From Heterohyrax brucei (taxonomy: Eukaryota; Chordata; Mammalia; Hyracoidea; Procaviidae), in assembly GCA_028571685.1 (NCBI GenBank), contig CM053148.1, positions 90,046,001-90,110,000 of the forward strand: a stretch of DNA of 64,000 bases, given 5' to 3'. Below the pieces are notes generated by a model. That model ran no database searches and was not told where the DNA came from. It was given only the letters and a program-made list of their open reading frames with translations. Every line of letters begins with the position of its first letter. The first letter of the stretch is position 1. Shown in pieces: positions 8,620-55,379 of the stretch. A program made the translations under genes and the position numbers.

Positions 8620-9169
8620 TGAGGACCGACAATTAAGTTGGCTAACTCATCCTAGACAGACCTCATTGCTGAGTAGCATTTAGGTCACCTTTGAAGTACT
8701 CTCCTTGGGAATCTGTGCACCAACACCAGGGTCTAGTCTACCCTCCAAAGAAATTTTGGAACTCTTTTTCTGGAATGGCTGTCAGAGCTGTTGTCCTATT
8801 CCCCTTGATGTCCTGAATGTCATCAAAATGTCTTCCTTTCAATATTTCCTTTATCTTCAGGCAAAGAAAAAATTCACTGGTGTCTAGATCAGATGAGCAG
8901 GGAGAGTGTTCCAATACAGTTATTTGTTTACTGGCTAAAAACTTCCTCACAGACATCTACAGAGTTAAGTTTGAACTTGCTACCATGGCACCATGTGCAA
9001 TGGTCGTTCCAGAAAGAGTTCCAGAATTTCTTTGAAGAGTGGGTTAAGCACTGGCATCAGCACACAGCTTCCCAAGGGGAGTCCTTTGAAGGCGACTGTA
9101 GTGACATTCAGCAAGGAGCTATGTAGCACTTAGAACAACTAAGTTTGCAGACTTAACTGTCACACCTTG
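8620..9169. mobile_element. Palindromic mariner derivative, copy A
   Basis: The left arm (about 8620-8945) is the reverse complement of a mariner 3' end. Its minus strand still reads transposase C-terminal motifs (VLEHSPCSSDLD, ILKGRHFDDIQDIK). The right arm (about 9003-9169) is the same 3' end read forwards (GTTCCAGAAAGAGTTCCAGA to AACTAAGTTTGCAGAC). Between them lies about 50 bp resembling the mariner 5' end (GTTAAGTTTGAACTTGCTAC). The outer ends match the terminal repeats of the full-length copy at 60130 (TGAGGACCGAC here). A TA precedes the left end; the right flank has CA. The two arms could fold into a stem of about 160 bp. It has no intact gene. Confidence 0.8.
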
Positions 9170-10376
9170 CATCTTGTCCACCTTTCTTTCAAGGCAAATC
9201 TAACCTCATTCCAACCACCAGAGATCCAGGTCCAGTCCAAAATGGGAGAACACACTGTTAGCTAGAATCCAGAGGGGGCTTGGGACAATTTCCAGTGCTA
9301 AACTTTGTGTGGACTGGAGGCACTCAGAACTTAAATTACCAGCCACAAATGTCCACTCTTCTTTACCTTATTAAGGGCCCAGGAAAGTCAGATGAACTGT
9401 ATAAAACTGGGTTATAGCTCTTGAACATGGCTTCTGTCTGGAGAATTGCCAGAAAAGTTAAGACTTAAATGTTTGTGCCTGTAAATTTAAATAGACAAAT
9501 CCAATTGGAGAACACAACCAGAAAATGTTCAGCAAAGCCAAGTCCCACAATATTGGCTCAAGTTTTTAGCTCACCACTTTGGGGTTTTGTAGATTATTTT
9601 TCATCTCCAAGTCTAAATTGCCTCATATGTGAGATACTGATAATAGTGCCTTCCCTACCTCCTTTATACAATTTCTAAGAAATAAAATAATAATAATAAT
9701 GATAATTTAAAAAAAAATAAGTGGTGTTATTTCAGTAATACCACTCTAGAGAACAGACAGCGTGTTAAGTTTCTACCTGTGTTCTATGTTACCGGAGTTA
9801 TCAAAAACAGTCACTAAAATATCTACACTGCAAGATAAATGATTTTTCTGTGTAATGATTTTACAAGCTTTTCATTTAATTCACCACTCCAAACAGTAGA
9901 GAAGACTCTGATTAAAAGTGTCTCTTTCAATTTGCTCTCATAATGTATTTGTGCTTCCTTACAGAATAGCAGGGGTTATTATAATACACTATTAATAACC
10001 AGAAAAAGATCAATCACTGAATCCACTGAGTAGATATTAATCATTTTTGCTGAAAGGAAGTTCAACCTTTTTCTGTGTTATGAAGGGGTTAAAAAAAGTG
10101 GAAGAGGATAAAGGTGAGTTTTATTTTGTTTTTAATGTTCTTGAGAGTATTTGGGAAATAAAAATATGTTACTCACATGGCACCCAGGTTTCTGATAATT
10201 TAAATTTCACTCATTAAATTTTTAATGACTAGGACTTAGTTTATTTCTGGGATTTAAATTTAACTCAGAGCCATCCTTCATTCCATATATAACTTTGAGT
10301 ATTTTGAAGCTTTTGCTTATTTCTAGACTTCGGATACCTATTTTTCACAATGGGAATGCAATTCTTCACATATTCA
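9170..10376. other. Unassigned sequence
   Basis: About 1.2 kb without a recognised repeat. A short AAT tract lies at about 9685-9700. Between 9960 and 10150 the sequence looks single-copy. No coding region is evident. Confidence 0.45.
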
Positions 10377-10390
10377 AAAACAAGAGCTGT
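10377..10390 (+). repeat. Target-site duplication, left copy (L1-like copy 1)
   Basis: It differs from 11443-11456 by one base in 14. The position directly outside the element's start and after its A-rich tail supports insertion by target-primed reverse transcription. Confidence 0.65.
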
Positions 10391-11442
10391 GTCGACTGCA
10401 AGACATTATGCTAAGTGAAATTAGTGAGCGGCAAAGGACAGATATTGTATGAGAATCCAGCAATAAGGATTTAAAAATAGACTTATGCACCGAAGAAAAG
10501 ACTCTGATGGCTACAAGGGGTGGGGAGGAAGAGAGAGGGTTGGTCATAGGTTAGACAGTCAATAGAAATTTGGTTAGGTGAAAGCAGTGACAGCACACAG
10601 CAGGAAGTGGACCAACTTGACTGGACTTCACCACAAACTGAAGGGTTTTCTAAACTCAGCCTAGTATTTCAGAAGATAGAATAGCAGGGACACGGTTTTG
10701 AGAACCACGTGTTTAGGGGACAGGGAAGCCAGCTGGTATAGCTGGTCTATCGCTAAGAGAGTCTTCTGCACCCTGTATTGGTGAGTGGTGTCTGGGGTCT
10801 TAAATGCTAGCAAGCTGCCCTCTGAGGTATACCAAATGATCCCAACTCTTCTGGAACAGATGATCACCTGGAACGACAAAGATATGAGGGAAAAAGAGCC
10901 CAGGAGACAGAAGGAACCATATGAATGGAAAACGGTATCCACATGAGACCAGAGGAACCAGATGGTGACTGGCTACCACCAAAGTCAGCCACGACAGGGC
11001 ACACAACGCAGAGTCCCTGGGACGACATGAGAAAAAGAGGTGTGCAGCCCAAGAACTCTACTAAAAGACCTGAATTGATGATGTGACAGCCTGGAGGATC
11101 CCCTGGGAACACGACCCTTAGACCTGCTGCTGTCCCTGACCAGAAACCAGTTATGAGGTCAGCTCTTCAGACAAGAATCAGCTGGACTCAGGAACACAGT
11201 GTGACCATATGGTGTGCATACTTTATGGTTCTATGTATTTATAGGATGCTGTCCTACTGGTCTCTTTCTGTATGGGAGAGAAGAAAGTGGAGAGGGATGG
11301 ACAGATGCTTGTTTAGAAGGTACTAGAGTGAAAAGGAGGAGTGTGCTGTCATCCAGTGGGGACACCAGAGGGCAGTGTAGACAGGTGGGCATGCAAAACC
11401 GATTTAGATTGCATACTTTCAATTAATCACAATATAAAGAAA
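10391..11442 (+). mobile_element. L1-like LINE 3'-UTR segment, 5'-truncated, copy 1
   Basis: The start (GCAAGACATTATGCTAAGTG, then GGACAGATATTGTATGAGA) resembles the familiar L1 3'-UTR start. Downstream blocks are GTCTGGGGTCTTAAATGC, GAACCAGATGGTGACTGGC and TTTATGGTTCTATGTATTTA. The 3' end ATTAATCACAATATAAAG is followed by an A-rich tail. A near-perfect direct repeat (AAAACAAGAGCTGT at 10377-10390, AAAACAAGAGTTGT at 11443-11456) brackets the element and is read as its target-site duplication. Open frames inside have no LINE protein motifs. It matches 18011-18644 and 43181-43803. Confidence 0.65.
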
Positions 11443-11456
11443 GAAAACAAGAGTTG
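11443..11456 (+). repeat. Target-site duplication, right copy (L1-like copy 1)
   Basis: Partner of 10377-10390, with one C/T difference. Confidence 0.65.
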
Positions 11457-12767
11457 TATGAAAAGGAAGCCATTATTCTAATTGAAAGAACTATTCAAAT
11501 ATTCGTAATGCAATTTTTAAGAGTAAAATCATGGCCAAATAGGAATTGTGAGCATCACATGCTGACATGAAAGGGAAAATAGTAATGATAACAATTAAGT
11601 AATAATACAAGAACATATTAGTGCTTTTAAATTTGCATTATCACAGGTTGCTGAAAATTTATTTAACAGATTTTGAAGACTAAGAGCATTCATTTAAATG
11701 AATTTGTTTGAGGAAAAATCACTTAGAGCTTAAAGCAGTATTTAAAACATTACAAAAATAAAGCCACACTATAGACATAATTGACTACAGATACAGTTTT
11801 AAAAAATTAAGTGATAAACTCAAATACATTAGAAGAACGACTTAGAACACAGATTAGAAATCAGAGTGCATGTATACCTTCCCCTAATTGCAAAATACCG
11901 TTACGGAAACTCTCATAGACTGCGAATATTCCATTTCGTCCAGTTACTTTTTTTCTCGTCAGTTTGTTTGCTGTCAAATTGCTTTCTACAAATTTAGTTT
12001 TTCCCAGTTCTCCTGCAGATACTGAATGGAGAGGGGGCTAAATATGTTAGCAGCTGCAGGGGTGACTGGAGTTGAACTGTTTCATAACTTGGAGGCTGCT
12101 CTGCTCATGAAGTAGGCTCTAAAATTATTTGCTGTGAGGGGCTGGGAGTGCAAAAATGGATTACGGAGAGTGAAAACTGTGTATGAAACCATCTTCACAG
12201 AAGTTAGAAAAGAACAGAAAGAGAAAACAAAAGATTTTTCCAACTGAGTCTGAAACCATACCCTTCTCATAGCACAGCTACAGAATGTGGTATATTTTTT
12301 TTAAAATGATATTCAGAATCTAAACCAATGACCCAAAGAGTGTTACTTCCAACGTTTTTCATTCTTTTCTCTCTTTCCACATTTACCTGAGGTTATGATA
12401 TCTTGCCTGATTTATTCAATTTTGATTCCAAGAAAACTGCTGTGGATTTTTCTGTTATGAATTTGCAGGCTTTATTTCAATACCAGATTCTCTGCCCGTC
12501 TTCCTCCTGGTCTTTCTCTTTCTTCTTCCAGAGCTTCCATGTCTTAATTCACCAAAAATGTATCAAAAAGCAAGTTAGGCCAAAACGTGTGTGCTAACTC
12601 AATGAGTACTCAGTGTATGAAACTTAAACTTTTATTGTCTTTAAATTCTAGTCCTGGTTTTGTGTAATATGATGTGATTGTTTCCTGTTAAGCTATATAG
12701 ACAATTGTGGTCCGATTTAAATAGTGAAAAAGTAGAGATTTTTAAACGTGTTTGTTTCTTTCTTAGT
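11457..12767. other. Unassigned AT-rich sequence
   Basis: No repeat family or coding region recognised over 1.3 kb. Confidence 0.45.
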
Positions 12768-14545
12768 TTATTTTTTTTTTACTATACTTTAGGTAACAGT
12801 TTACAGTAGAAATTAGTTTCTCATCCACAAATTTATTCACAAATTGTATTGTGACACTGACTACAATCCCAGAATATATCAGTGCTCTCCTCCTTTCCTT
12901 CTGGTTTCCCTGCATTCAGTCCATCCAGTTTCCCTGTCCCTTCCTGTTCTCTTGTCTTTGTTTTCCGCCACGTGTTGACCGCTTGGTCTCATTTACATGG
13001 CTGACCCAGGAAGCACTTTTCTTCATGAGTGTTACTTTTTGTTTCACAGACCTGTCTAATCTTTGGCTAAAAGGTAGGCTTCATGAGTGGTTTTAGTTCT
13101 GAGTTGCCAGGGTGTCCTGGGATCATAGTCTCAGAGGTTCCTTTTGTCTCAGTTAGACCAGTAAGTCTGATCTTTTACTTTTCTTTAAGTTTTTATTGGC
13201 TTAAGTTTTTTATTTATTTTTTTCATTGTCCATTCAGAACAATTTTACAGTCTATATCATGTTGCCGTACAATATCCAGAACCTTCACCTCTGTTCTATT
13301 CTAGCTGTCCTAAGTCTCCCCACATGACAGCGTGTTTCACCTTTTGTTGGGAACTCCCCATGACCTTTTGGCCAAGGAATGACCCTCGTCAACCAGTCAG
13401 CTGCACCCCAGCAAAGTGTCCCTCAGACAACTCTGTGTACACTTTTAAAGGTTTGTTCACCGCCAGTATCACTCTATGTTTTGTGTGGTCCAGGTCAGTC
13501 TTTGTCTGGGCAGCTGGCCCCGGTGCTAGATGCAGCTTCGGTTAGAGAGTCCAGTGTCCATATTCCCAGGGCTCTCTCCATTCAAAAGGAACATCAGCTG
13601 TGGCCTTTTGATAGAGTTCTAGCTCTGCCCTCTATTCCATCACCTGATTTGTCCGGAGCTCTGTTCTGTGTGCCCCATCTGGGCTGTCATTGGTGGTGGC
13701 TGGGCACTATCTAGTTCTTCCGGTCCCCTGCTGAAGTAGGCTATGGCTCATATGGCCCCTTCCCTCTGGAGGGCTTATATTTTTCTCCTGTCCTCAATGT
13801 CCACCATTTGCCTCATGTCTGGGAAGACTGAGACCATTTGGTGCTATTTAGATGGTAGAAAAAGCTTGGGTATGTTAGTCTGGGTGTCCCCTGAGAGCAT
13901 GGTCCCCTGATCTCAGATCTTGTTTCTCTGTTCTTCCAAAGAGAAGGTCTACCTTATAGGGATAATTTGGTTGGAATTTTGTTCTACATTTTTCTCCTAC
14001 TTTTTCTGGAACTCTCTTTTGTGTCAGAGTGGTACACAGTGGTTGTCAGCATCATCTAGTTCCTCTGGGCTCAGATTGGTGGAGGCTGTGATTCATGTGG
14101 TCCATTAGTTCTTAGGACTAACATTTGCCTTGTATCTTTAGCTTCCTTCATTGTCCTTTCTTCCAGATGGAATGGAATTGATATGTATCTTACATGGCTA
14201 CTGAAAAGTTTTTAAAACTCCAGACATTGCTCACTAGAGTAGGATGTAGAACACTTTCTTTATGAACAGTTGACCTAGATGTCCCTGTGATCATGGTTCT
14301 CGGTCCTCAGTCCCAGAAACTTGGTCCATTGAGGTATTTGGATGTAGCTAGGAAGTTTCTGCAATACTATCTTGGTCAAGTTGTGTCGACTTCCCTTATA
14401 TTGCGTGTTGTCTTTCACTTAACCAAAGTTGACAGTTGTCTGCTATCAAGTTAGCATTTTCCCAGAGCTGCCGTCCCTCATGATGATCACAGATTTTTTT
14501 TTTTTTTTTTCTGCCTGTGTGCTAAACTTTTCCTGAATTTTTAGA
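12768..14545 (-). mobile_element. L1-like LINE 3'-UTR segment, antisense
   Basis: It starts with a T-run (12768-12780), the complement of an A tail. It then runs backwards through a 3' UTR: ACTTTAGGTAACAGTTTACA, CTGTCTAATCTTTGGCTAAA, AGACCAGTAAGTCTGATC, CATCTAGTTCTTCC, ACTCCAGACATTGCTCACTA, and finally GTGGTCTTACATG. The part from about 13985 to 14430 is the reverse complement of 17335-17700. Short frames inside (up to about 110 residues) lack ORF1 or reverse-transcriptase motifs. The segment contains a diverged internal duplication (13650-13760 and 13995-14100). Confidence 0.6.
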
Positions 14546-15473
14546 ATAGTGGTCTTACATGTATAACATTTTATTTCAGTTCTGAGTTAGAGAATTTGTG
14601 GCTATATTTAGAACTACCCCTAAAAGACTTTTTCATTTCTTGAAATGAATCTTTCTTGAAATTAAACTTCCATTAAATTTAAGCCAACAGTAAAAGTATG
14701 TGTTTTCATTTGTTTATAAAGTTTGTGTTGAAATATATGCAAAATTATTCTGGACAATTGTCTTCACAACATTTTTTTCACTGGAACCTCTGGGAATACT
14801 CTTCAATAAAATATCCTTGAGTAACTTCAAAATCAGCTGAAAGCCAGGTTTGAAGAATTAAGAAGCAAGGAATTAGCTATACAGGTAACATTAGATCTTG
14901 GAAAACTTTAACTTCATCCTAGGATACAAACAGAAGACTGTCAGGAAAAGATTCTCAAGAAATACAAAAGGACAAGCAATTTTATGGGGGGTTCTTTTGC
15001 TGAAGTGCTAGAAATTCTGTACAGTACCATCAAGAGCTACATGATTTGGTGGGTATTTTTACCTTTGATTGACTCTATTTTGACTAGAATACTTTATAAT
15101 TATGCCAGAATGGGTGTTGAATTATAGAAAAATGATAATAATTTTCATAACCACAAAAATGCAAATAAATTCCATTTACTAGATATATAGTATTTCCCTA
15201 TATGAAATACGACATTTTTTTCCAACTATTACATTTTATTCCCAAAAAACCATGAACAATATTGAATTTATTATCAAATTTATTTCAGAATTATCAATTG
15301 TATATCTATTTAACATGTTCACTCTTTAAATTTTACTTTCAACTGCTTTTAATATTTTACTGGTTACCTCATTAGTGAGTTGTAATATTTGACACAATAA
15401 TTTATTTATTTTCTTTTCATGAGAATCACAATTTTAATTTTTTAATGTAATTTAGTAGCACCAAAAACAAACC
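14546..15473. other. Unassigned AT-rich sequence
   Basis: No repeat or gene recognised. The AT content is very high between 15100 and 15460. Confidence 0.45.
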
Positions 15474-15621
15474 AACCAACTCCAATTCTGACTCGTAGAG
15501 ACCCTATAGGGCAGAGTAGAACTGCTCCATAGAGTTTCCAAGGAGTGCCTGGAAGATTGGAACTGCCAACATTTTGGTTCGCAGACATAGCACGTAACTA
15601 CTACGTCACCAGAGTTTCCTT
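15474..15621 (-). mobile_element. AfroSINE, full length
   Basis: The plus strand reads ATTCTGACTCGTAGAGACCC, ACTGCTCCATAGAGTTTCC, TACGTCACCAGAGTTTCC. The body is well conserved and the B-box complement is altered (GATTGGAACTGCC). Confidence 0.87.
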
Positions 15622-15825
15622 AGTGGCACCAGTAAGTACCAAGTAAGTCTCAGGTAAGGGCTTTCTTGACCCTTCCTTCACAGGCTTTAACCCACTGAAA
15701 AGAACTGGAAAAGGAAGAATTTTGAACTCCTATTTCAAGTGAACTCTCGGGGCTTTCCGATGAGTTGTTACAGTGGACACACCATTAAGCTACTCCTACA
15801 TCAGAAGGAAGTTTCTGGGGGATAC

Positions 15826-16003
15826 AGTCGATGAAACATTGGGTTCAACCATTCAAACCCATCCAGGGGCTCCTTGGAAGGAAAGTCTGATGATGTGCTT
15901 CTGAAAAGTCATAGCCATGAAAACGCTGTGGAGCAAACCTCTACTCTGAAACATACGGGGTCGCTATGAGTTGGAATCAGCTGGACAGCAACTGATTTTA
16001 CCT
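15826..16003 (+). mobile_element. AfroSINE, long type
   Basis: The body GGGTTCAACCATTCAAACC leads to the long-type module TGATGTGCTTCTGAAAAGTC and the tail GGGTCGCTATGAGTTGGAAT. A possible degraded head extends upstream to about 15750. Confidence 0.75.
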
Positions 16004-17329
16004 CAGAGGTAGGAATGAGAAATTGGGCTTAGTTTCTAGCTTTGCCTGGTGTTCATTGGTCAGGAAGGGGCCTCAGGGTAGATCCCCTAAGGATGTGGTG
16101 TCAGTTATGGATTTTGAATGATCCTTTATGAGATTTACCTGTTGACAGTCATTTATAATAAGAAATCCTGTAGCGGTATCTCCTAGGTTATGTTTTGCTC
16201 TCAATGAAAAATTTCCTTTTTATATCTTTGAAGCAAATACAAATCTGAAGTAAAAAAATTATATTGAAATTAAAGGCTTTGTTTTCTTTTAAGGACATTT
16301 TTATTTCAAGTTTAAAAAAATATATATGATTGTCCTTAGATGTCCATAATCAATATATATTTTCTCCAGTCTTCCTGTAAGATATTTTTAAATTTTAAAC
16401 AAATAGGTACTTGTGCTTAGATGTCAACAATTAATGTTATGCATTTTACCCATAATTCCTGTTTTTTTCCTTATGCAAAACACCAGAGGTTTAATTTGCA
16501 TTTATTTTCTGTTTACAACATCTGTCCTTTCCTATTGCCTATCTATTCTGAAAAACTATCTTTGAATTTCAAAAATTAGAATTATCTTTATTCTGGACTT
16601 CGCATCTGAAATGACTTTCTTTCCGTACGATTCATTTCCTACAACCATCAAATTTTCTCTTATCCTTTTATAACACTGTAAAAAGTGTCTTTTGCCGTGT
16701 TTTGTGTTCTGAATGAGACTTATTGTTAACAGACTCCTAGAATATATTCTTCTCTCTGAAATAATGGCATTCATAATATAGTCCCAGGATAGGTAGCCAA
16801 TAAAAGTGCTTCATATTTTGAAGGAATCCCTAGAATATCCTCAAATCTTTACGAAAAGGAAACACTAGGAAAGATTTTTCATTTATTAACACCTGTAGGG
16901 AAAATATTAATATAGAAAACTAGTAAGGTCTTACAAGAGGTAATGTAAAATATTCACATTCTAATGTAAAATGTGCTTTGGGTATTTTAATACGTAATTA
17001 TTCTCCCTACTATCACATGTTATACTGAATTCTAATATGGTCAAACTCTGAATAGACAGTTTAAAAAAAAAATATTGTGTGCATAAATAGAATGTTGGGA
17101 AAAAGCCTATTTAAGCCAAACAAAAATAGAAATGTAATAGAGTTTGTGTTCATACTACCTTGATTAAAAAAAAAAAACCAAAAAACTAAATAACAAACAT
17201 TAACTATGAACTGGCATGTTTTATGTGATTCCTGGAAAATTTTACTAATTCATAAAAATTTGACAGTTCAACCAACTCATTTCAACCAAAATATAGCAAA
17301 ACTGAACTCAAAATTAAGAACTTAGAGAG
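16004..17329. other. Unassigned AT-rich sequence
   Basis: No transposon or coding motif recognised. Several A- and T-runs occur (16311-16325, 17061-17072, 17167-17177). Confidence 0.45.
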
Positions 17330-18644: not shown

Positions 18645-18654
18645 TGTTTAATTA
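18645..18654 (+). repeat. Target-site duplication, right copy
   Basis: Identical to 18001-18010. Confidence 0.8.
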
Positions 18655-19008: not shown

Positions 19009-19558
19009 ACAAACATCCAATTAAGTTCAGGAACTCATCCTAGAAAAAGTGCTACATGCCTCATTGCTGAATAGCACTTGTGTTACTTTTGCAGCACTCA
19101 CCCTGGAAAACTGTTCACCAATGCCCACACAGAGGTCACCCTCCAAAGATATTCTGGAGCTCTTGTTCTGTGATGGACATCGGAGTTGTCCTTGTATTAC
19201 CCTTGATGTCCTGAATGTCATCAAAATGTCTTTCTTTCAATATTTCCTTTATCTTTGGGTAAAGAAAGCAGTCATTAGGGGCCAGATTAGATGAGGAGGG
19301 AGGGTGTCTCCACACAGTTGTCTCTTTACTGGCTAAAAACTACCTCACAGACAACTATACAATTTGCCACCATCCCACTGTGCTCAATGGCTGTTCCAGA
19401 AATAGTTCCAAAATTGCTTTGAAGGGTAAACTAGGCATCAGCATTGGTGCATGGCTTCTCAAGGGGAGTACTTCAAAGGTAACTGCAGTGATATTCAGCA
19501 ATGATGTATGTAGCACTTGGAACAATTAAGTTCACCGACTTAATTTTCAGATTACCAA
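19009..19558. mobile_element. Palindromic mariner derivative, copy B
   Basis: It has the same layout and orientation as copy A: a long arm (ACTCATCCTAGAAAAAGTGC to CTACCTCACAGACAACTATA), a centre CACTGTGCTCAATGGCTG, and a short forward arm (GTTCCAGAAATAGTTCC to ATTAAGTTCACCGAC). The left outer end has decayed (ACAAACATCC) and the right end reads TTTTCAGATTACC. Its length, 550 bp, equals that of copy A. Plus-strand frames here are antisense to transposase and not genes. Confidence 0.78.
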
Positions 19559-25543: not shown

Positions 25544-25804
25544 ATTATAAGTGTTAGGATGTGTGTGATAAGAGATGACAAATTTGAGATAGAGGCAACT
25601 TAGAATACACCTCTTGACAGATACACAGAGAAAAGAAAGGAAGAGATAGCTATTGTCAAGCCAATGATTCCTTCTAGTCCTGCTGGATAAACTGGAATAA
25701 AGAGGTGGAGGTTCATAAGTCTCTTCAGTGTGGGGGAAAAAAAAAGTGAGGGGGTGGGGGAGTAAAACTCTACAGAGTTTCCAAGTTATATTTTTTAGGA
25801 TATA

Positions 25805-26371
25805 CGAGGTCCAACAATTAAGTTTGTATACTTAATTATTGTGAACTTAAGTCTGGGAACTTAATTGTTCTAAGTGTTATATACCTCTTTGCTCAATATC
25901 ACAATCATCGCTTTCAAAATACTCCCCTTGGGAGGCTGTGTTCAAAAGCCAGAGCCTATTCCACCCTTCAAAGCTATTTTGGAAGTCTTTCTGAAATGGC
26001 TACTGCACACAGTGGTGTGAGGACAAGTTCCCAAATTTAATAGTATAGTTGTCTGCAAAGGAATTTTTAAGCCACTAAACAAATAACTGCACTGGAACAC
26101 CCTCCCTACTCACCTGATCTGGCCCCCAGTGACTTTTTTCCTTTATCCATACATAGAGAACATATTGAAAGGAAGACATTTGGAAGATGTTCAGGACATC
26201 GAGGGTAATACAACAACTCTGAAGGCCATTCGGGATAGTTACCCAACTGTTTTGAAGGGTGGACTAGGCACTGACATCAGTAGATAGCTTCCCAAGAGGA
26301 GAACTTCGAAGGTGACCTTAGTGATACTCAGCAATGAGGATGTGTCTACAAACTTAATTGGCAGTCCTCTC
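25805..26371. mobile_element. Palindromic mariner derivative, copy C (inverted relative to A, B, D, E)
   Basis: A TA and a well-kept terminal repeat (CGAGGTCCAACAATTAAG) open the element. The short arm is on the left (to about 25998, CTGAAATGGC), then a centre (CACAGTGGTGTGAGGAC), then the long arm. The long arm reads sense to transposase: GGAACACCCTCCCTACTCAC, GAAAGGAAGACATTTGG, TTTTGAAGGGTGGACTAGGC. The right end is GGCAGTCCTCTCATG followed by TA. The terminal ATTAAG block appears duplicated near 25816-25870. Confidence 0.76.
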
Positions 26372-38235: not shown

Positions 38236-39374
38236 TGCAGTTCTACTGCATCGTCTGTTTACAAACAATTCTTCTAATTTATTCTGAACTTTCTGAACTT
38301 GCTTTCCAGTTTCCTTCATCTTATTTTTTTAGTGGTTTACTCATTTCTTATTCATGCATTATTTGTTCATTTTATCTATTTGTTTCACATTTACACAGGT
38401 CATGTATTTATTTTATTAGAGTGTTCATTGCCTACTAGACTCATTTTTTTCATTTTCTTCTTCCCTGTAGGAAACTGTCATTTGTCCATAGATTAACCAA
38501 CAGCCTTTGTAACTTGGGACCTCCATTCTTAGCATCAGTGCTATTATTATAGGCTAAACAAGGCATGGCATCTGACGATCCTGGGTTAGGCATGTGACCT
38601 AATTTGAATCAATCAGGATGCAAGCAATAACTTCAGGAATTTGATGAGTAAGAATTGTGATTTTGACAGGAATCTATTTTGTTACATGAAATAAATCCAA
38701 ATATAGATAATGGCTACCTTATATTATGGGTAGAGAAAAACATGTTTGAAAGACATGACTCCTCCAAGCCATTAGTGTCCCAAGTTCATGTGGAGTCATT
38801 GCTTTTTGTTTTTCCTCTTCAAAGCCTTGATAATCCAGTGAAGGTTTTGAGAGAAATTCAACTTCTTACACCACTGTTACAGCCTAGAGCTTACGATATT
38901 TCAAGATACAGCACAAAATTCATGATCCTTGTAGTATTGACTCTAGTGGGTTATAAGAAAGTTAGGGCAGGAGGTTCAAAGAGACTAGATTAGTAAGATA
39001 GATTCAAGATAAATTATAAAGAACCTAGTTTAACGTTCTAAGGCATTTGGTTTCTTTGTGAGTATTAAAATAGTGCCATATATTATGCATAGAAAAGAGG
39101 AAGTTATGAACCCTGGGAATCAGATATAAAGAAATATCATGGCATTGGAGAGCCATCAATTTTGTTTTAAAAATATAATTTTAGATATTGATGGGTATTG
39201 TACAGCATAGACAATATACAGACCTGAGATTAAATGATTAGATTGTAAATTTAGCTCTGAAGGTAGAAATACAAGGAGAGACTGAAGAAGTGTTTGCAAA
39301 TAAGTCCTGTACAATGACAGAACTATGCAAAAATGAAATATCACACATACATGACTTCACTTACTTTCCACCTA
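38236..39374. other. Mostly unassigned; possible old LINE trace at 38560-38680
   Basis: GGGTTAGGCATGTGACCTAA, TTTGAATCAATCAGGATGCA resembles an old mammalian repeat motif (GGCATGTGACCCAAG, GGCCAATCAGAATG). The rest is unassigned. Confidence 0.35.
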
Positions 39375-39907
39375 CAAGGACTGACAGTTAAGTCCATGGA
39401 TGCATCCTAAAAAAGGTGCTACCTACCTTATTGCTGATTATCACTGTGGCCACCTTCAAAGTAATCCCCTTGGAAGCTATACACTGATACCAGCACCTGG
39501 ACCATCCTTAAAAGCAATTTTGGAACTCTTTCTCTGGAATGGCCATCAGAGCTGTCATCATATTATACTTGGTGTCCTAAATGTCATCAAAATGTCTTCC
39601 TTTCAATATTTCCTTTGTCTTCAGGCAAAGAAAACAGTGAATAGGGAGGGTATTCCAATATAGTTATTTGTTTGCTGACTCAAAACTCCCTCACAGAGGA
39701 CTACACAGTTAAGTTTGCAAACTTATCACTCAGCCACAGTGCACAATGGCCATTCCAGAAAGTTCCAAAATTGCTTTGAAGGGTGGACTAGGCACTGGCA
39801 TTGGTGCATAGCTTCCCAAGGGGAATCCTTCAAAGATGACGTAGTGATATCCATCAACGAGGTATGCAGTACTTAGAACAATTAAGTTTGTGGATTATCT
39901 GACCTCC
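39375..39907. mobile_element. Palindromic mariner derivative, copy D
   Basis: A TA precedes the left end CAAGGACTGACAGTTAAG. The long antisense arm ends at ACTCCCTCACAGAGGACTAC (39684-39703). The centre shows the 5'-end-like CAGTTAAGTTTGCAAACTTA and GTGCACAATGGCC. The short forward arm runs from ATTCCAGAAAGTTCC to TTATCTGACCTCC. At 533 bp it is the shortest copy. The junctions coincide with those of A, B and E. Confidence 0.8.
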
Positions 39908-45060: not shown

Positions 45061-45071
45061 ATCTCTATTCC

Positions 45072-47424: not shown

Positions 47425-47579
47425 ACTGACTGCCTTCAAGGTGGTTCTGATTCATAGTGACCCTATAGGACAGAGTAGAACTACTCCTTAGAGTTTCCAA
47501 GGAGCACCTAGTAGATCTGAACTGCTGCCTTTTGGCTTAGCAGACATAGCCCTTAACCACTACACCACCAGAGTTTCCA
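47425..47579 (-). mobile_element. AfroSINE, full length
   Basis: GTGGTTCTGATTCATAGTGA, GACAGAGTAGAACTACTCC, CTACACCACCAGAGTTTCC. Confidence 0.9.
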
Positions 47580-48249
47580 GTCAGAACCTAGAGGCACCAG
47601 AAAAAGTTTATTCTAAGGTAAATTGGCAAGTAAACGTGTGTTAAATATACAACATAACGTGTATGCGTTTAGAAGGCACACATCGCCAAGAAAGGGGAAG
47701 AATATGTCGTAGAGAGCTTTTTAAAGCAGGTTGACAACCTAAGGGACAGTGAGAAGGTCGTAGCAAGTCAGACATGAAGAGAAGCAAGTCTGTACCTGGA
47801 TACATGCAGGATATAACAAGCTATGTGGATTGATGGAAACAAAAGACAAAGAAGAATGTGAAAAAAAGGTGACAGGATATAGACGATGCCAGATAATTCT
47901 TGTATAACTTGAACTTACCCCATATATTTCTAACAGGAGGGGTTACACTGAGAGCTTTAACGCAGACCAGAAGCATGGTTGAATCTGACTTTTAGATAGT
48001 TCTCTCATCTTGTGTGTCGCAGATGGTTCTGAGACAGGGGAGATAAAAGACAAGGAACAAGGAGAAGTGGGTGCTGCTTCCCAGGTCTGGACAAAAAACA
48101 CGAAAGGCTAAACTAGCATAATAAACAAGGAAGCAGAGAGTAGAAAACGTTGACTATTTGCATGAAAAATTCAGAATTATTTGGTAAATGATTTACAGTG
48201 TGGGAGTAGTGTCCTGATTATTTGTTCTCTTAGTATGATGTTTAAGATC
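47580..48249. other. Unassigned sequence
   Basis: Nothing recognised. Confidence 0.4.
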
Positions 48250-48869
48250 GTGTGTCAGCTCAGCTGGGTAGCGATTGTCCTTGTTTAGGAAGCCGTATAA
48301 TATTGTGATCACACCCGTGGTGGAATGTGATGGTGGTACCAGTCAGGGAGGGGTCTATAGGGGTGTCACTGCCCCCTCAGCCTTTGTCTCTCTGCCTCCC
48401 ACTGCCTACTTCATTTCCACTCACCTTGCCAAAGTTTTTGGCTTGTTCTGTATCCTGCAGCAGCCACTCCTGCTGTCTAACCTCTGGTTCTCGGGACTGG
48501 AGCTAGCAGCTTGCCTGTAGCTCTTGGGATTCATCCATTGTCACAGCCTGCAATTCAGAGTTCTGTGTATGACTTGCTGACTTTGGGTTCGCAGGTCCCC
48601 GCAGCTACATGAATCAGAAGAAACCTTGAGGTCTCTCTTGTCGTCTTGGGATACAGAGACCTTCACAACCTTTGAGCACAAGCTCTGGTCTTGCACCTGT
48701 TGACCTTGGGTTCACTGGCTTCCATGGCTGCATAAATCGGGAGAAGCCTATCTTGGGATCCAGGACTTGGGAAATTTCAGCCCCTACAGTTTTTTTAATA
48801 TAAGTATCTCTCTGTACATAGTCATACTTTTTACTGGTTTTGTTTGTCTAGAGAACTCAGCCTAAGACA
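48250..48869 (+). mobile_element. L1M-like LINE 3' end, sense
   Basis: TGTGTCAGCTCAGCTGGG, TATTGTGATCACACCCG, GGGATTCATCCATTGTCACA, TTGGGATCCAGGACTTGG, ACTGGTTTTGTTTGTCTAGA, GAACTCAGCCTAAGAC. It is the sense-strand counterpart of 22934-23785, whose first bases (CTTAGGCTGGGTTCTCTAG) are the complement of this 3' end. Confidence 0.62.
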
Positions 48870-49040
48870 CTTAGGTCATGATGACTGTAACTGAGATAAT
48901 CACTGTTTGGATGTAATGATTTTGAGATGTCTGTAGGTTTACAAGGAGAAGATGACCAGCAGGAAACTCTGTATCTTAGTTTGAGCTAAGCAATGAACCA
49001 AGACTGACCATCATTTCAATAAAGCACTCACACAGAAAAG

Positions 49041-49187
49041 TCATTGGGCTAATTCTATCTCATAGCAACCCCATAGGACAGAGTACAACTGCCCCATGGA
49101 GTTTCAGAGGAGTGGCAGCTGCTGGGTTTGACTTGCTCACCTTTAGGTTATCAGATAAGTTCTTAACCACTGTCCCCCAGGGCTCCT
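49041..49187 (-). mobile_element. AfroSINE, full length
   Basis: TGGGCTAATTCTATCTCATA, GACAGAGTACAACTGCCCC, CACTGTCCCCCAGGGCTCC. Confidence 0.86.
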
Positions 49188-50745
49188 CACCATCAGATAG
49201 GTACCTATGAAATTCAAGCAATGGGTGCAGTCAGCTAGAAAAAAATGGGTAGACAAAAAGAGCAGCAGTCATCCAAGAGTAAGATTCAGGGGATGCTGAA
49301 ATATCCATCCTTTTTCCTCCTTAAAGACGGAGTCAATGGAGAGGGAAAAGTTAGGTCTCAAACCTTTTGATGAAAAAATCTAGAACAACAGAAAAATCAG
49401 TCAATACAAGAAGGGTTGGAGATTATCACGGTTTATAGAAAATATACACCACATATGTTATAATTAAGTTTTTCTTCCTCCCTTTTACCTTTAATCACAC
49501 TTCATAGATAAAATTTATGCTAATAACATTTTTTAAAATTAATTTTGGTGAGTAGATTTACCACTTTTCTTATTAAATAATGTTCAGTCAAGCTATACAC
49601 CTCACTATAAGAGATATTGGCATTGACTCCTGCATCTAGATATTTTGACATTTTTCTTTTCTTTCCCTCTTCCATTTTTTATACACTACATTGTTAAAAC
49701 TGTAACATTTGTATTTTGTCTAAAAACTGAAAAAAACAAACTTTTCGTTCTTGAAAGTAGCCTTATTCAAGTATTTAAAACACATTATCAGTGTTTGCAG
49801 TACTTTGGTTGTATAACTATTGCTTGCTTAAGAATCAAACTGTAGGACTGGACCCAGAGTAAAACAAATGAAAATGATGAGACTGTATGTCACTTAATGA
49901 AAAGCATTACAGACATCTGCATGTGGAATTGATCCCATTTCATGAGATGAGGAGTGACAGCAACCAACCACGCTCAGTTCAATTTTTAATTAATTACTTG
50001 AATTATTTCACCATTATCTCACTCTTGCTAATTCAAATGTTTTCCAAGACTACCTGGAAATAACTGTCTTTCTGGTAGTGTTTTGTAATGTAATTATTCT
50101 GCCGATTTAGTCCCTTAATTTCTATCTTCTCAATTTTCTTTTTTCTGCCCAATTCAGAGCCCTTTGACCAGTATCTAAGAGTGGTTCACCACACCAGGAA
50201 CCCAGCTCTTTTTGCTGGACCTTTCTCGACCACAGAAGCTGCAAAATTAGATGAAGAGACTGGGAAGTAAAGCAAGCAATACAACTAAGGTCTACATTTC
50301 CTTGAAGTTTATATTCTGTAGTTTATATCCTGTAGACCCAGTCTGGAGTTCAGAAAACAGCTGAAACGCTGGAGGTAGGCTGAATGCTCCAATCATCAAT
50401 TTGCTAACGAGAACTGTAGTGGGGACATTCTTGTTCTGAAGCCCATAGTCTTGGTGGTGTTCTCCTAGTGTTTGGACCCGAACAATCAGCAGTGTTCCTG
50501 TAACAACAGGTAATCCTCGTGATGCTGGATTCAATTTCTACTTGGGGAGATACCATCAGACTCCCACCCTAATGCTTGATTTCTAAAATGTCCAACATTT
50601 TGACATTTACCAAATTTCCTGTATCAAATCTTTTCTGTACTGTCCTACATGAGTTATATTACTCGCAGTTAATCTCTGTTTGAAACATATCCCTTATGCC
50701 TTCAGTACTGCTATTTTTAGTGTAATCCCTGCCCTCTCCCAGTTA
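49188..50745. other. Unassigned sequence
   Basis: No repeat family recognised. The part at 50150-50540 is less AT-rich and looks single-copy. Open frames there are short (up to 80 codons) and unremarkable. Confidence 0.4.
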
Positions 50746-50893
50746 CGCAGCGTGGTGGTTAAATGCTATGTCGGCTAACCAAAAGATCAGCCGTTCAAAT
50801 CCGCCGGGCACTCCTTGGAAACATAATGGCGCAAATCCTACTATGGCCTGTAGGGGCGCTGTGAGTCAGAATTCACTTAATGTCAATGGCTTA
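50746..50893 (+). mobile_element. AfroSINE, full length
   Basis: GCAGCGTGGTGGTTAAATGC, CGTTCAAATCCGCCGGGC, GGCGCTGTGAGTCAGAATTC. It is relatively rich in retained CpG, which suggests a younger copy. Confidence 0.88.
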
Positions 50894-51872
50894 TTTTTTT
50901 TTTTATGTGAGACTTTGAATTCTGGCATTCAACGGGAACTTGACAAAGAAGACTGGGAGATAAATTTGTGCTCAATTTGATGTCTAATCTATAAATCCTC
51001 ATTTTTCAAATAACTAAAAATCCTACTTAACAGAAATGTTTTTATGCATCCTTTGCAATGTATCAATTTAATTATTTCATTTGTATCTAAGATGTAGATA
51101 TAATCATAGTGATAGATACAAGTATGTCTTGCCCTACAATGGTGTTAAAGTTGTGCTGGCATTTGACAGGGGAGTGTTAACCTCACACACACACTGACCG
51201 GGATTAATGGTTTATGTTCAGAATTTTTTTTTTTTTTTTTCGGATATTAGATTTGACATTTCTGACTATGAAGAGTCTATGTTTCTGCTGTCACTTTATT
51301 CACTTCCTCCAGGGGCTTGTCAGTCACTAGAGGCACGTGCAAGGCCCAAGACTGTCCTGATTAAATGCTAATGGGTAATTTTACTTGAATACCGACGTCA
51401 AAGCAAACAGTTTGAAAGTCCCATTTTGCTGAAATGTTTCATTAGATGCTATAAATGTCATTATAATAGAAGCACTATCTATTCTGTTGATTATGTGCTG
51501 CTGCTTTTACCAACACGAGATTCAGGTTTAGAAAACATAGTAAAATCTGAAACATCGCCTGGAGAAGAAAAAAATTAGAGATTCCTTGGGTGTTATATAT
51601 CTTCACACTCAGCACTGATTTTGCTTTAGGCAAACACATTTCAATCAGTTTTATAAGAATATTATGTATATAACAACATGTCTTGCAAGAACTTGGAATA
51701 TAAGTAAATTCATGTCATTGATGGTCTCCCGTGCTCAGTCCTTCATATGCCAGTTTTAGTCTAACAGGGTACGTACGAAAGTATGAGCAATTAATGAAAC
51801 ACATGGATAGACACACACACGCAGCAGAGTGGCATCTAAGGAATTCATCGTTGTACCAGAAGAAGATTAAGC
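50894..51872. other. Unassigned; possible conserved noncoding sequence
   Basis: A poly(T) run lies at about 51223-51240. The part at 51290-51530 looks single-copy. No gene is seen. Confidence 0.35.
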
Positions 51873-52072
51873 AGTTACCACTGAATTGACTCCAACTCAG
51901 GGCAACCCTAAGTGTGTCATAGCAGAGAAGTGCTCCACAGGGGTTTCAATAGCTGATTTTTGGGAAGTAGATCACCAGGTCTTTCTTCCAAGGTGCCCCA
52001 GGGTGAAATAGAACTATGAACTTTTCAGTTAGCAGCCGAGCACTGAACTGTTAGTTCTAACCAGGGACTCCT
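51873..52072 (-). mobile_element. AfroSINE, long type
   Basis: GAATTGACTCCAACTCAGGG, TAGATCACCAGGTCTTTCTT, CAGTTAGCAGCCGAGCAC, CCAGGGACTCC. The reverse of AAGAAAGACCTGGTGAT is clear here. Confidence 0.8.
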
Positions 52073-52221
52073 CAATAAGATTAAGTCCTTTCTATTAAAA
52101 TTATGTTACTTACATTTTAGGAAATTTGGAGTTCCAATTATATCTTTAATATTTACATTCAAAAGTATATAGAACTTAGCAGGTGAAAATATTTTACCCC
52201 TGTCAGATTTTAGAGATGTAT

Positions 52222-52285
52222 TTAAAATTCAAATTCACCAGCTGCTCCTTGAAAACCCTGTAGAACAGTTCTCCTCTGTCCTATA
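52222..52285 (+). mobile_element. AfroSINE, left part (split by another SINE)
   Basis: AATTCAAATTCACCAGCTGC, CCTGTAGAACAGTTCTCCTC ends in CTCTGTCCTATA. The rest resumes at 52436. Confidence 0.83.
52274..52285 (+). repeat. Target-site duplication, left copy
   Basis: CTCTGTCCTATA, identical to 52436-52447. Confidence 0.9.
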
Positions 52286-52435
52286 AACCAATACTAAACT
52301 CCATGTGCTGTTGCGTCAATTCTGATTCATAACAACCCTATAGGACAGAGTTTCCAAGAAGCAACTGGTGGATTTGAATTGCTGGCCTTTTGGTTAGTAG
52401 CTATAGCCATTGACCACTATGCCACCAGGATTTCC
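52286..52435 (-). mobile_element. AfroSINE inserted into another AfroSINE
   Basis: GTTGCGTCAATTCTGATTCA, ATAGGACAGAGTTTCCAAG, TATGCCACCAGGATTTCC. Direct repeats CTCTGTCCTATA (52274-52285 and 52436-52447) bracket it exactly. Confidence 0.9.
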
Positions 52436-52490
52436 CTCTGTCCTATAGGGCTGCTGTAGGTCAGAAAAAAACTGCAAGTCAATGATTTAT
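52436..52490 (+). mobile_element. AfroSINE, right part of the split copy
   Basis: It starts with the second copy of the duplication (52436-52447). GGGCTGCTGTAGGTCAGAAA and GCAAGTCAATGA, a worn SINE tail, follow. Confidence 0.83.
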
Positions 52491-53203
52491 TTTACTGTTT
52501 TCAGTGTTGGAGATAAATGGCAGCTTACTCAAAAATGAAATCGCTGAAGATGTAATTCTTCAGGTATCAGATAATCTTTCAGCACTGAACTTGGCTTATT
52601 CATAACACAGTTTCAGTCTTCAAGCTCTTTATGAGTGAAAGAATGAGGACAGAAATCATGTAAGAACAACACAATCCTTCTGGAGAATATCTATGGCTAG
52701 AGAAGGACCTCAATTGCCTCTAACTTGAAAATCACACTCTGAGAAAAATAAATGGAAAAAAAAGTATAGAAAGGAATAGGTGTATTTATGTGTTTGTGTG
52801 TGTGTGTGTGTGTTTGTGCACACACTTGACTGTGTGCACATGCATGCATGTAAGGTAAGGGTGGATGTCAGGCAACTCAGCAGTTGGAAAAGAGACCTAA
52901 ATTAGGGTGGCTTCAAAATTGTTACTAAAGTCAAATGCTGGCCAAAAGACATTGGAACATAGGACACAATGGGACCAAAGACTTCTCAGCTTCCACGATG
53001 CCTCCGGAAGGCATGCTATTGATCAGAAGTCTTTGTTTCAAAAACTGAAATGAGCTTCTCTGTATTTGTCTTTCTAGAATAGTCATATGAAGGAATGTAA
53101 CCAGTATGTTATGGAACTGTCATTAATACAGAGATCACACAGCAAACAACCTTATGACACTGAGTATTCATTTGAAACTGAATGTAGGCTAGTAAGAAAA
53201 TAC
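52491..53203. other. Unassigned; TG microsatellite
   Basis: (TG)n occupies about 52789-52815. No gene or other repeat is recognised. Confidence 0.5.
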
Positions 53204-53366
53204 TGATCGTGCAGTGGTCAAGTGCTACGTCTGCTAACCCAAAAGTCAGCAGTTCAAATCCACCAGGTTCTCCTTGGAAACTCTATGGAGCAGTTCTACT
53301 CTGTCTTGTAGGGTCTCTATGAGTCAGAATCGATTCGACAGCAGTGGGTTTGGGTTTGGTTTTGGA
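53204..53366 (+). mobile_element. AfroSINE, well preserved
   Basis: CGTGCAGTGGTCAAGTGCTA (A-box region), AGTTCAAATCCACC (B box at 53251-53264), TATGAGTCAGAATCGATTCG and the tail GCAGTGGGTTTGGGTTTGG. It is one of the clearest copies of the short type. Confidence 0.92.
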
Positions 53367-53378
53367 ATAGGCTACTAA

Positions 53379-53541
53379 GGAAATATTGGTGGCATAGTGA
53401 TTGACTGCTATGACTGCTAATGAAAAAGTTCAGCAGTTGGAATCTGCCAGGTGCTACTTGGAAACTCTACGGAACAGTTCTACTGTTCTACTCTGTCCTA
53501 CAGGGTTGCGATGAGTAAAAACCAACTCAGTGACAGTGGGA
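53379..53541 (+). mobile_element. AfroSINE, tandem neighbour
   Basis: AAATATTGGTGGCATAGTGA, GCAGTTGGAATCTGCCAGG, TACTCTGTCCTACAGGG. A TTCTAC unit is duplicated (ACAGTTCTACTGTTCTACTC). Confidence 0.86.
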
Positions 53542-53569
53542 TATGCTACTAAATAAAAGCAACAGCATA

Positions 53570-53770
53570 GTTGGTATAGAGTTGATTCCAACTCATAGTG
53601 ACTCAGCGTGTCTGAGAGCAGAATTGAACTCCCTAGGATTTTCAGTGACTGAGTTTTCTGAAGCAGATCATCAGGTTTTAATTTTGGGCCTTTTTGCTTG
53701 GGCTTGAACTGCCAACTTTTCAGTTTGCAACCAAATGAGAGCATTAGCCATGTTTACCACTCAGCAATGC
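53570..53770 (-). mobile_element. AfroSINE, long type, diverged
   Basis: AGAGTTGATTCCAACTCATA, TTTTCAGTGACTGAGTTTTC, GCAGATCATCAGG, GCCAACTTTTCAGTTTGCAA. The end of the head is degraded. Confidence 0.72.
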
Positions 53771-54297
53771 TAAGAAAAATTAGAGCTCTAAATACATTGA
53801 GAAGTGGTCTATGACATTGGATTAAGTCATACTGCTGAGATGTTGATTACCTCTCAACTGATCCATAGATATAATTCATTAGCAATAAAACACAGATGCA
53901 TCATATTTTCTCATCAAAGTAGTGAAAAGAAGCTATTTCCAAAATAATGCAAATAAAAAGGTCACATGACCTCTAAAATAAGACTGCATAATTTAAATCT
54001 GCCTGGGAGCAGCTGGAAATTGGCCTCCAGCTATATAAACATGTTTCCTTCCTAATATTTACTTGAGTGTTCATTATACATGGCTAATCCTGGTTTAATT
54101 CATCCCCAAAATCGCCTACTCCATGCCTGAAAATACTGTGTAGGCCTGTTTTGCAAGATTTTCAGGTTTATGAAATTTTTACTACTGAGAGTGAAAATAA
54201 ATTTTTACTTAAAAAACAGATTCCTCTTTTGTATGTTTTTCAATCTTCATATATATTTCTGTATTGCTTCGGTTACCCAGTGTGTAGGCGATTCCAA
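53771..54297. other. Unassigned sequence
   Basis: Nothing recognised. Confidence 0.4.
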
Positions 54298-54445
54298 AAA
54301 CCCATCTGCCATCGAGTTGGCTCTGACTCACTGCGATACTAGAAGTCAGAGTAGAACTGCCCTATGAGTTTACAAGGAGAATTTGAACTGCTGACCCTTT
54401 GGTTAGCAGATGGAGCACTTAACTCACTATGCCAGCAGGGTTTCT
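54298..54445 (-). mobile_element. AfroSINE, with a small body deletion
   Basis: GCCATCGAGTTGGCTCTGAC, GTAGAACTGCCCTATGAGTT, CAGCAGGGTTTC. The GCACCTGGTGG part is lost. Confidence 0.86.
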
Positions 54446-54843
54446 GTGTATACAACTAGGTAGTCACAAATGATTTATGTTAACAGAGATTCATATTTTG
54501 GAATTCTTTCATAATTTTATATTGCTTTTGTGTTAGGGGAAAAAAATAAATAACGAAAGGAAGAAAATTGCACACATGCCACTAAGCAATATTCAAAATG
54601 GATACTTTTCTAGTACATGGATTTAAACAAAGCCCAAACAGAAAACAGCATCAAAAGTAAGCAGTGACCTACAGAAGAGATAGAATTAACATTTATGGAA
54701 TATTTGTTACAATCCGTATTCTGTGCTGTGTAATATACTTAAGACCATCCTATTGCATTGCTACAGGTCAATTCTTGAACTTCAATTTTAAGGAAGGAGA
54801 AACTAGAACTTGGGGAGTCTGATGACATGCTTGTGGTCATAGA
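54446..54843. other. Unassigned sequence
   Basis: Nothing recognised. Confidence 0.4.
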
Positions 54844-55379
54844 TGAGGACTCACGTTTAAGTTAGCGAACTCATTCTAGAAAAAGTGCTGAATACCTCAT
54901 TGCTCAATATCACTAAGGTCACTTTCGAAGTACTCCGCTTGAGAAGCTATGCACTAACACCAGTGACTAGGCCACCCTTCAAAGCCATTTTGGAACTCTT
55001 TTCCTGAAACAACCATCAGAGCTGTCGTTTTATTACTCTTGATGTCCTGAATGTCATCAAAATGTCTTCCTTTCGATACTTCCTTTATCTTTGGGTAAAC
55101 TAAAAAGTCATTGGCACCCAGACCAGGTGAGTAGGGAGGGGGTTCCAATACAATTAGTTGTTTAGTAGTTAAAAACTTCCTCACAGACAACTATACAATT
55201 AAGTTCTTGCACGTGTGACCACGTCACTGTGCACAATGGCTATTCCAAGATGAGTTTCAAAATGGCTTTGTGGGGTAGCTCCGAAGGGGAGCAGGTTGAA
55301 GGTGACCATAGTTATGTTCAGAAATGAGATATGTAGCACTTAGAACAATTAAGTTCACCAACTTAATTATTGGACTTCG
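54844..55379. mobile_element. Palindromic mariner derivative, copy E
   Basis: The left end TGAGGACTCACGTTTAAG and the right end ATTGGACTTCG followed by TA mark the boundaries. The long arm is antisense to the transposase C-terminus; the minus strand reads PPYSPGLGANDF and KEVSKGRHFDDIQDIK. The centre keeps CAATTAAGTTCTTGCACG and CACTGTGCACAATGGC. The short forward arm has lost about 30 bp (GGGGTAGCTCCGAAGGGGAG). Confidence 0.8.

Follow-up and report, generated by a model that had tools for sequence, protein, structure and literature searches.

The 64-kb window, the whole stretch of Heterohyrax brucei DNA that was analysed, contains five copies (A to E) of a rearranged mariner element together with a longer mariner relative (Table 1). 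The earlier note had recognised a common plan in these five copies, one of them inverted, and blastn and profile comparisons verify the coordinates and layout of all five and the minus strand of copy C. By sequence comparison, A to E are confirmed as one non-autonomous, MITE-like palindromic derivative of a 1.3-kb Hsmar2-like mariner. Individual copies carry changes of their own: the right-end dyad of copy C has an additional extension, and the short arm of copy E has an internal deletion of ~26 bp. Five copies in a 64-kb window, against 2.3 expected, do not support special clustering (P about 0.08). A SINE-like repeat was also seen in the analysis, which we take to be AfroSINE-like and which would be compatible with an afrotherian host.

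Table 1. Mariner-derived features of the window
Feature	Position	Strand	Parts	Detected by
Copy A	8620..9169	+	long arm ~8620-8955 (inverted mariner 3' end), spacer 8956-8999, short arm 9000-9169	full-length and palindrome profiles, blastn
Copy B	19009..19558	+	long arm ~19018-19353, short spacer, short arm 19387-19550	profiles, blastn
Copy C	25805..26371	-	long arm 26050-26369, short arm 25804-26000	profiles, blastn
Copy D	39375..39907	+	long arm 39374-39698, short arm from 39746	profiles, blastn
Copy E	54844..55379	+	long arm 54844-55189, short arm 55236-55379	profiles, blastn
Full-length mariner relative (parent family)	60130..61417	+	broken reading frame; profile match 2-1305 of 1305 (one of the four sequences from which the full-length profile was built)	

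The element begins with an inverted mariner 3' end (~336 bp), followed by ~5 bp of filler and by a mariner 5' fragment of ~30 bp, in which the outermost ~9 bp of the TIR are absent. Downstream of this fragment come an 8-bp tandem repeat and then the last ~165 bp of the mariner in direct orientation, with a right subterminal stretch of ~12 bp that is altered relative to the mariner 3' end and constitutes a third rearrangement. The whole is ~560 bp long and the middle of the mariner is absent: none of the 16 known palindromes has a full-length profile match below position 959, the ~30-bp 5' fragment being detected by alignment and not by that profile. The arms pair over 165 positions, 154 of which match in the consensus. 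The middle had been described before as ~45 bp resembling the mariner 5' end; its 5' origin holds, as judged from two full-length copies outside the window (L017 and L020), but the 5'-derived part is shorter and truncated, and the filler before it and the tandem repeat behind it had gone unmentioned. Similarly, the direct arm does correspond to the ~160 bp of mariner 3' end proposed for it, but departs from that end at the right terminus. This third common rearrangement had been overlooked.

When the 5' end of the window mariner was compared with the five single-copy spacers, it scored better than 300 shuffles for D alone, and 85 of 1000 shuffles reached its score against the consensus spacer, so that with this copy a chance match would be possible. 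L020, which matches the consensus spacer at 28 of 29 bases, and L017 both scored above every shuffle (0/1000 each); this rules out chance and settles the 5' origin of the spacer. A 3'-end origin was rejected, as its scores were lower than those for the 5' end in the three full-length copies tested (9.0 vs 11.0 for F, 15.5 vs 21.5 for L017 and 11.0 vs 25.0 for L020).

The breakpoints are shared. Relative to the full-length copy of the window, the inverted long arms of all five copies stop at base 953-955, and the direct arms of four begin at 1124-1127; in copy E the local match begins at 1178, while by profile its short arm starts at the common position. Of the 16 known palindromes, 15 have a long-arm profile match, always ending at 959-961 (within 3 bp). 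A short-arm match is likewise present in 15, with its start at 1131 (11 copies), 1134 (three) or 1137 (one), hence within 6 bp. The copy without a long-arm match, L015b, has only ~51 bp of that arm in the sequence examined (its blastn match starts at base 955), and the one without a short-arm match, L017b, is cut by the end of the sequence examined. All four relatives without the rearrangement continue through both breakpoints. The right-end variant beats the parental type in 14/14 palindromes tested and loses in 4/4 full-length relatives, in a comparison whose test strings were taken from the same sequences and in which L007a was left out and L017b was cut. Genome-wide, the first junction has 38,826 sites with up to 3 mismatches in 26, against 0 for the reversed-pattern control. 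In 13 copies, arms of the same copy differ by 0.341 and arms of different copies by 0.337, and they share 1.9 and 1.8 non-consensus bases, respectively, with no sign of gene conversion between arms. Since the arms of one copy are no closer to each other than to those of other copies, the palindrome formed once, before amplification. The shared junctions noted earlier recur in copies from different contigs, and together with the third rearrangement, the arm distances and the genome-wide junction matches they bear out the view that the element was rearranged once and then multiplied. From their sequences, the examined copies can be shown to descend from one founder in which an inverted 3' end was joined to a truncated 5' end.

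A 250-kb sample, although small, contains nine palindromes vs two full-length copies, from which about 126,000 copies are estimated genome-wide (95% interval 57,000-238,000); an earlier search pattern had given 46 matches, mostly to unrelated sequence, with 3 in the control. The element matters for repeat annotation because its share of the genome is apparently sizeable (about 2%, estimated from the same sample). The label MITE is justified: the element has TIRs and no transposase gene, coexists with a full-length family, and combines many copies (38,826 vs control 0) with the fixed structure of a single founder, seen in its common junctions. As fits the target-site duplication of Tc1/mariner elements, TA adjoins the left end in 9/13 copies and the right end in 5/13, read by eye with the ends moved by up to 2 bp. 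TA on both sides in only 2/13 is a weak point for transposition. The pairwise distance between palindromes (0.279) is about twice that to the consensus (0.152), as after a single burst, and the full-length relatives are about equally diverged (0.246-0.284 in the six pairs of four); at present the family looks inert. For a family with so many copies a database entry is likely, and Dfam/Repbase probably contain a curated consensus of it. No published account of this layout was recognised in the open-licence PMC literature, among the matches listed in searches partly aimed elsewhere.

Full-length relatives were found in the window, where TA flanks the copy on each side, and at L017 and L020, with a partial one at L007. 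Neither the window copy nor L020, the two copies with listed ORFs, has an intact reading frame. Two ORF fragments of L020 were searched, and each resembles Mos1 transposase significantly (E 4.5e-5 and 3.1e-4); fragments from the relatives carry the motifs DETW (L020), HHNN and SPDL; a Pfam search of five parent ORF fragments gave HTH_32 in one, under the curated cut-off, and no match in four. By its transposase matches, the parent belongs with the mariner-type elements of Tc1/mariner.

That every copy turned palindromic at its own site, by a separate fold-back of a full-length mariner, is scarcely conceivable. Palindromes did arise more than once in the mariner family, since L012 (8150-8696) holds a different palindromic rearrangement; but here each arm's junction is common to 15 of 16 copies, the third rearrangement is the same in all 14 tested, one junction has tens of thousands of matches (38,826), and arms within a copy show no excess similarity. 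A composite origin is a more serious contender, though still unlikely. According to this scenario two adjacent, opposite mariners, one full-length and one internally deleted, would have been brought together by loss of the intervening DNA; their two outermost 3' ends would then have been mobilised as a unit, giving the same product by another founding event. The right part indeed corresponds to a mini-mariner with an internal deletion (~30 bp of 5' and ~165 bp of 3' sequence) minus its first ~9 bp, and it adjoins an inverted 3' end; yet no free mini-mariner was found in the window, the 250-kb sample or eight pattern loci, and a simple deletion leaves the altered right end unexplained. Very probably, A to E are fossils of one non-autonomous mariner element. 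Its founder is best explained by template switching, and its spread by the transposase of the full-length family, acting in trans on two 3'-type ends. The switching would have occurred during repair of the gap after mariner excision, and three features may be its traces: the filler, the tandem repeat of 8 bp and a flip at the dyad that the TIR itself contains. Filler and short repeat fit end joining equally well. How the steps followed one another is a matter of guesswork, because no intermediate, for instance a 5'+3' mini-mariner lacking the long arm, was present in the same three sets of sequence. Once formed, the founder would have been moved through its two outer 3'-type ends by transposase from contemporary full-length copies, whereas the inner 5' TIR, having no terminus, would not be cut. 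Two like ends may have made a better substrate than the parent, which would help to explain the excess of palindromes in the 250-kb sample: for Mos1 with two right ends, part of PMC4505599 reports transposition 26 times as efficient as with the natural pair, and a donor with two right (3') inverted repeats is described in an excerpt of PMC2642840. A pair of 3' ends would not necessarily be an advantage, since the Mboumar-9 transposase favours the left end (PMC4505599, in part).

One may go further and speculate that the element was a super-substrate and transposase sink, outgrowing its parent and, through titration of transposase, contributing to the family's extinction. Such a role appears improbable, although some features are consistent with it: the two outer ends would be of the preferred type, the inner 5' TIR keeps a putative DNA-binding part without a cleavage terminus, and at the right end a mirrored copy of the binding motif forms a second putative half-site, so that each copy would have several predicted binding sites with one productive pair only. 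It is very unlikely that transcripts of the palindrome feed small-RNA genes, as those of MADE1 did for mir-548 (PMC1784062, in part). The consensus is predicted to fold at -326 kcal/mol (mean -135 and minimum -151 in 30 mononucleotide shuffles) and A to E at -172 to -201 kcal/mol, each under its own 20 shuffles; but the long stems have decayed, no Rfam family reaches the gathering threshold in the 64-kb window, and copy A, the only one searched at a relaxed threshold, gave one match, to a lncRNA model (E 0.42). The parallel with MADE1 and its miRNAs, drawn in the earlier note, thus stands as an analogy only. Slightly less probable still is a regulatory reading, in which the element owed its spread or its retention to a mariner-ORF silencer that it still largely contains, its copies acting as dispersed silencers. 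For Mos1, Himar1, Hsmar1 and Mcmar1 a functional silencer is reported, lying within the final 300-500 bp of the transposase ORF (PMC4777549, in part); judging from motif positions and the Hsmar2 layout, about 250 bp at the end of that ORF should fall within the long arm, and the consensus has 5 AAGGG/CCCTT motifs vs 0.9 in shuffles (1/500 reaches 5). However, that excess is partly due to the doubled arms, individual copies carry 1-4 motifs only (15 copies, some partial), and the minimal Hsmar2 silencer, according to the same source, is a longer segment (delta-7) that is seemingly not kept whole here.

The element offers a clean natural case of a mariner becoming a palindromic MITE: it has one founder, three rearrangement scars readable base by base, relatives of the parent still present, and a copy number large enough for statistics. 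Two questions can now be put to the test: does a mariner whose two ends are of one type out-compete its parent in a mammal, and do palindromic MITEs arise by template switching? As a transposon fossil the element is of a familiar type; what is unusual is its internal plan.

MARNA, presumably of similar length, was weighed as a name for the element. We did not adopt it; the comparison was by description and not by sequence, so this rejection is not a strict one. MARNA and HSMAR2 are listed among recently active elements in tarsier (PMC5059674, in part). Like MADE1, the MITE of Hsmar1 in human, our element is a non-autonomous, hairpin-forming palindromic mariner derivative. MADE1, however, is 80 bp long and consists of two TIRs of 37 bp separated by 6 bp (PMC1784062). 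The present element measures ~560 bp and pairs over 165 positions; it has in addition a long inverted segment that stays unpaired, and it retains an inner remnant of the 5' TIR as well as pieces of the transposase gene. In length and plan it is thus no member of that 80-bp family of Hsmar1 ends. Its parent resembles Hsmar2, of the irritans subfamily in human, in its ~1.3 kb and in motifs described in part of PMC3770610, a likeness drawn from motifs and description. Hsmar2 has about 1,000-1,240 human loci (PMC3770610 and PMC4777549, in part), in contrast to the tens of thousands of palindromes here, and was first encountered within an inverted-repeat structure named Humar1 (PMC3770610). In having both outer ends of one type, the element is comparable to the two-right-IR constructs of Mos1, which are cut and transposed more efficiently (PMC4505599); those constructs were made in the laboratory, whereas the present element is natural.

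In the palindromic family, the founder was already palindromic before it spread. When palindromes A to E are aligned to each other and to the window's full-length mariner, each shows a long stretch that matches the mariner 3' end in inverted orientation; a short segment without a match follows, and then the final part of that 3' end again, this time in direct orientation. The long arm stops at base 953-955 of that mariner in all five, and the short arm begins at base 1124-1127 in four; the local match of E starts from 1178, and a profile of four mariner relatives (the window copy, those in loci L017 and L020 elsewhere in the genome, and a partial one in locus L007) places its short arm at the shared point too. 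Sixteen palindromes are now known, five from the window, nine from a density sample and two from pattern loci. In the 15 copies whose long arm matches the profile, that arm runs down to profile position 959-961; for the sixteenth, L015b, the sampled stretch covers ~51 bp of the long arm, where the blastn match starts at base 955. The short arm, which copies the final ~165 bp of the mariner, starts at position 1131 (11 copies), 1134 (three) or 1137 (one), L017b being cut before this point and hence uncounted. One plan for A to E, with a fixed long-arm end and a common short-arm start, as the earlier note had claimed, is thus what the alignments give.

Coordinates of the palindromes, mariners and associated features
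Feature	Location	Coordinates	Strand
Palindrome A	window	8620-9169	
Palindrome B	window	19009-19558	
Palindrome C	window	25805-26371	-
Right end of C, extra dyad round	window	25805-25865	
Palindrome D	window	39375-39907	
Palindrome E	window	54844-55379	
Full-length mariner	window	60130-61417	
SINE-like core	window	24651; 36249; 61819; 63399	
Insert within a palindrome	L022	8915-8995	
Differing palindromic rearrangement	L012	8150-8696	
Full-length mariner	L017	586-1881	
Palindrome	L017	9637-10000	

The mean distance between the two arms is 0.341 within a copy and 0.337 for arms taken from different copies, and non-consensus bases common to both arms average 1.9 within copies and 1.8 between them (13 copies in each case). 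Genome-wide, a 26-base pattern spanning the first junction (the long-arm end) has, with up to 3 mismatches, 19,467 forward and 19,359 reverse matches, against 0 for the reversed control. Together with the common junctions, these results bear out the proposal that the rearrangement occurred once and its product then multiplied. The mean distance to the consensus is 0.152 (all sites, 13 copies), or 0.136 with consensus CpG sites left out (15 copies), both consensuses being derived from the copies measured; the mean pairwise distance between palindromes, 0.279, is about twice 0.152, a pattern as after one burst. Since the four mariner relatives are 0.246-0.284 apart (six pairs), the periods of activity of the parent family and its palindromic derivative roughly coincided. 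At mammalian substitution rates of around 1.3-2.2 per site and billion years, taken without calibration, the palindromes would be very roughly 60-115 million years old. By eye, TA abuts the left end in 9 of 13 copies, the right end in 5 and both ends in 2, as expected of a decayed TA target duplication. The palindrome of locus L022 is interrupted by an insert of ~81 bp, suggesting that it is older than this insertion; the SINE-like core of the insert, which we take to be AfroSINE-like, is present again at four sites of the window and at six further loci.

The middle is composite. A filler of ~5 bp (ACTAT in the consensus) directly follows the long arm, then ~30 bp from the mariner 5' end, and an ~8-bp tandem repeat (CCACCATG) precedes the short arm. 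The 5'-end part shares 28 of 29 bases with the L020 mariner and matches that of L017 well (0/1000 shuffles each); it matches the window mariner poorly (85/1000 shuffles do as well). As this match extends outward only to about base 10 of the mariner, the 5' TIR lacks its outer ~9 bp. Hence, of the ~45 bp of 5'-like sequence described in the earlier note, the 5' origin stands and the length shrinks to ~30 bp. Likewise, the short arm is a direct copy of the mariner 3' end as described, except that its terminus is altered, parental TTCTAGGATGAG being swapped for AGAACAATTAAG, which with the outer TIR forms a dyad of about 26 bp. In all 14 palindromes tested (L007a was left out and L017b is cut) this variant scores above the parental type, and the parental type outscores the variant in 4/4 mariner relatives, both test strings having been drawn from the very sequences tested. 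At left ends the parental type is favoured in 13 of 14. The one that departs, L018, carries a deletion at that end and falls clearly to neither type; the entry for L015b, which is truncated on the left, carries little weight. At the right end of copy C the AATTAAGT/ACTTAATT dyad is extended by one more round, as though the flip had been repeated there.

The product itself is observed; for its making, one may propose that template switching during repair of the gap left by an excised mariner built the founder, and such switching could have left the filler, the short tandem repeat and a flip at the dyad of the TIR itself. The main rival is the fusion of two neighbouring mariners as the founding event. 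No founder intermediate was present in the window, the 250-kb sample or the pattern loci. The element has two outer ends of 3' type and an inner 5' TIR without terminus. In Mos1, two right ends raised transposition 26-fold above the natural pair, whereas in Mboumar-9 the left end is preferred (PMC4505599); because these elements favour opposite ends, this mariner may or may not have preferred its 3' end, a preference that might have made the palindrome a better substrate. Small size would be no obstacle, since mariner MITEs of 80-120 bp are mobile in vitro (PMC2642840). As the Mos1 DNA-binding domain holds the inner part of the transposon end (PMC4505599), the inner 5' TIR remnant might also bind transposase uncut and thus act as a sink.

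The density sample covered 250 kb of the same genome in 25 stretches of 10 kb each, 20 of them hand-picked at round coordinates and five taken from a seeded random list. It contained nine palindromes, of which two run off a stretch end, together with two full-length mariners and one differing rearrangement; 15 stretches were without any family member. Extrapolation gives about 126,000 palindromes (95% interval 57,000-238,000), about 2% of the genome, and about 28,000 full-length copies (3,400-101,000). The five palindromes of the window are no significant excess over the 2.3 expected (P about 0.08). The L006 palindrome and the cut one of L007 stem from an early pattern search, in which two of eight loci hold the family, and lie outside this estimate. 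The 38,826 junction matches are a lower bound for sites with the first junction; because the filter passes 7 of the 16 known palindromes (one of the 16 is truncated within the site), the actual total is likely slightly more than double, roughly 83,000-89,000, inside the sample-based interval. Published estimates of the DNA-transposon share in the Asian elephant lie far apart, one at 1.29% of the genome (PMC10497851) and another at 22% of the masked 55% (PMC13185315); were the present genome an elephant's, one family of around 1-2% would sit uneasily with the former. In the differing rearrangement, at locus L012, the left arm ends at about parent position 1118 and two direct 3' ends follow; either a second founder or a nested insertion might explain it. 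The mariner and palindrome of L017 lie less than 10 kb apart.

Folding of the consensus, proposed earlier as a check, gave -326 kcal/mol, far below the minimum of -151 among 30 mononucleotide shuffles, and A to E each fold below their own 20 shuffles; no Rfam family reached threshold in the window. The final 300-500 bp of the mariner transposase ORF reportedly contain a silencer, with a longer segment said to be needed in Hsmar2 (PMC4777549). The long arm should retain roughly the last 250 bp of this ORF, and a complete Hsmar2-type silencer is therefore unlikely. The consensus holds 5 silencer motifs against 0.9 in shuffles (1 in 500 reaches this count), mostly lost in single copies.

As for the parent, two L020 ORF fragments match Mos1 transposase (E 4.5e-5 and 3.1e-4); among five fragments searched against Pfam, one matches HTH_32 below the curated cut-off and four have no match. 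No published description of this layout was recognised in searches of open-licence PMC papers; palindromic mariner MITEs are a known kind. The parental fragments carry DETW (L020), HHNN and SPDL motifs resembling those described for Hsmar2 (PMC3770610), with which the parent may be placed by resemblance, and Hsmar2 was itself, as stated there, first reported within an inverted-repeat structure, Humar1.
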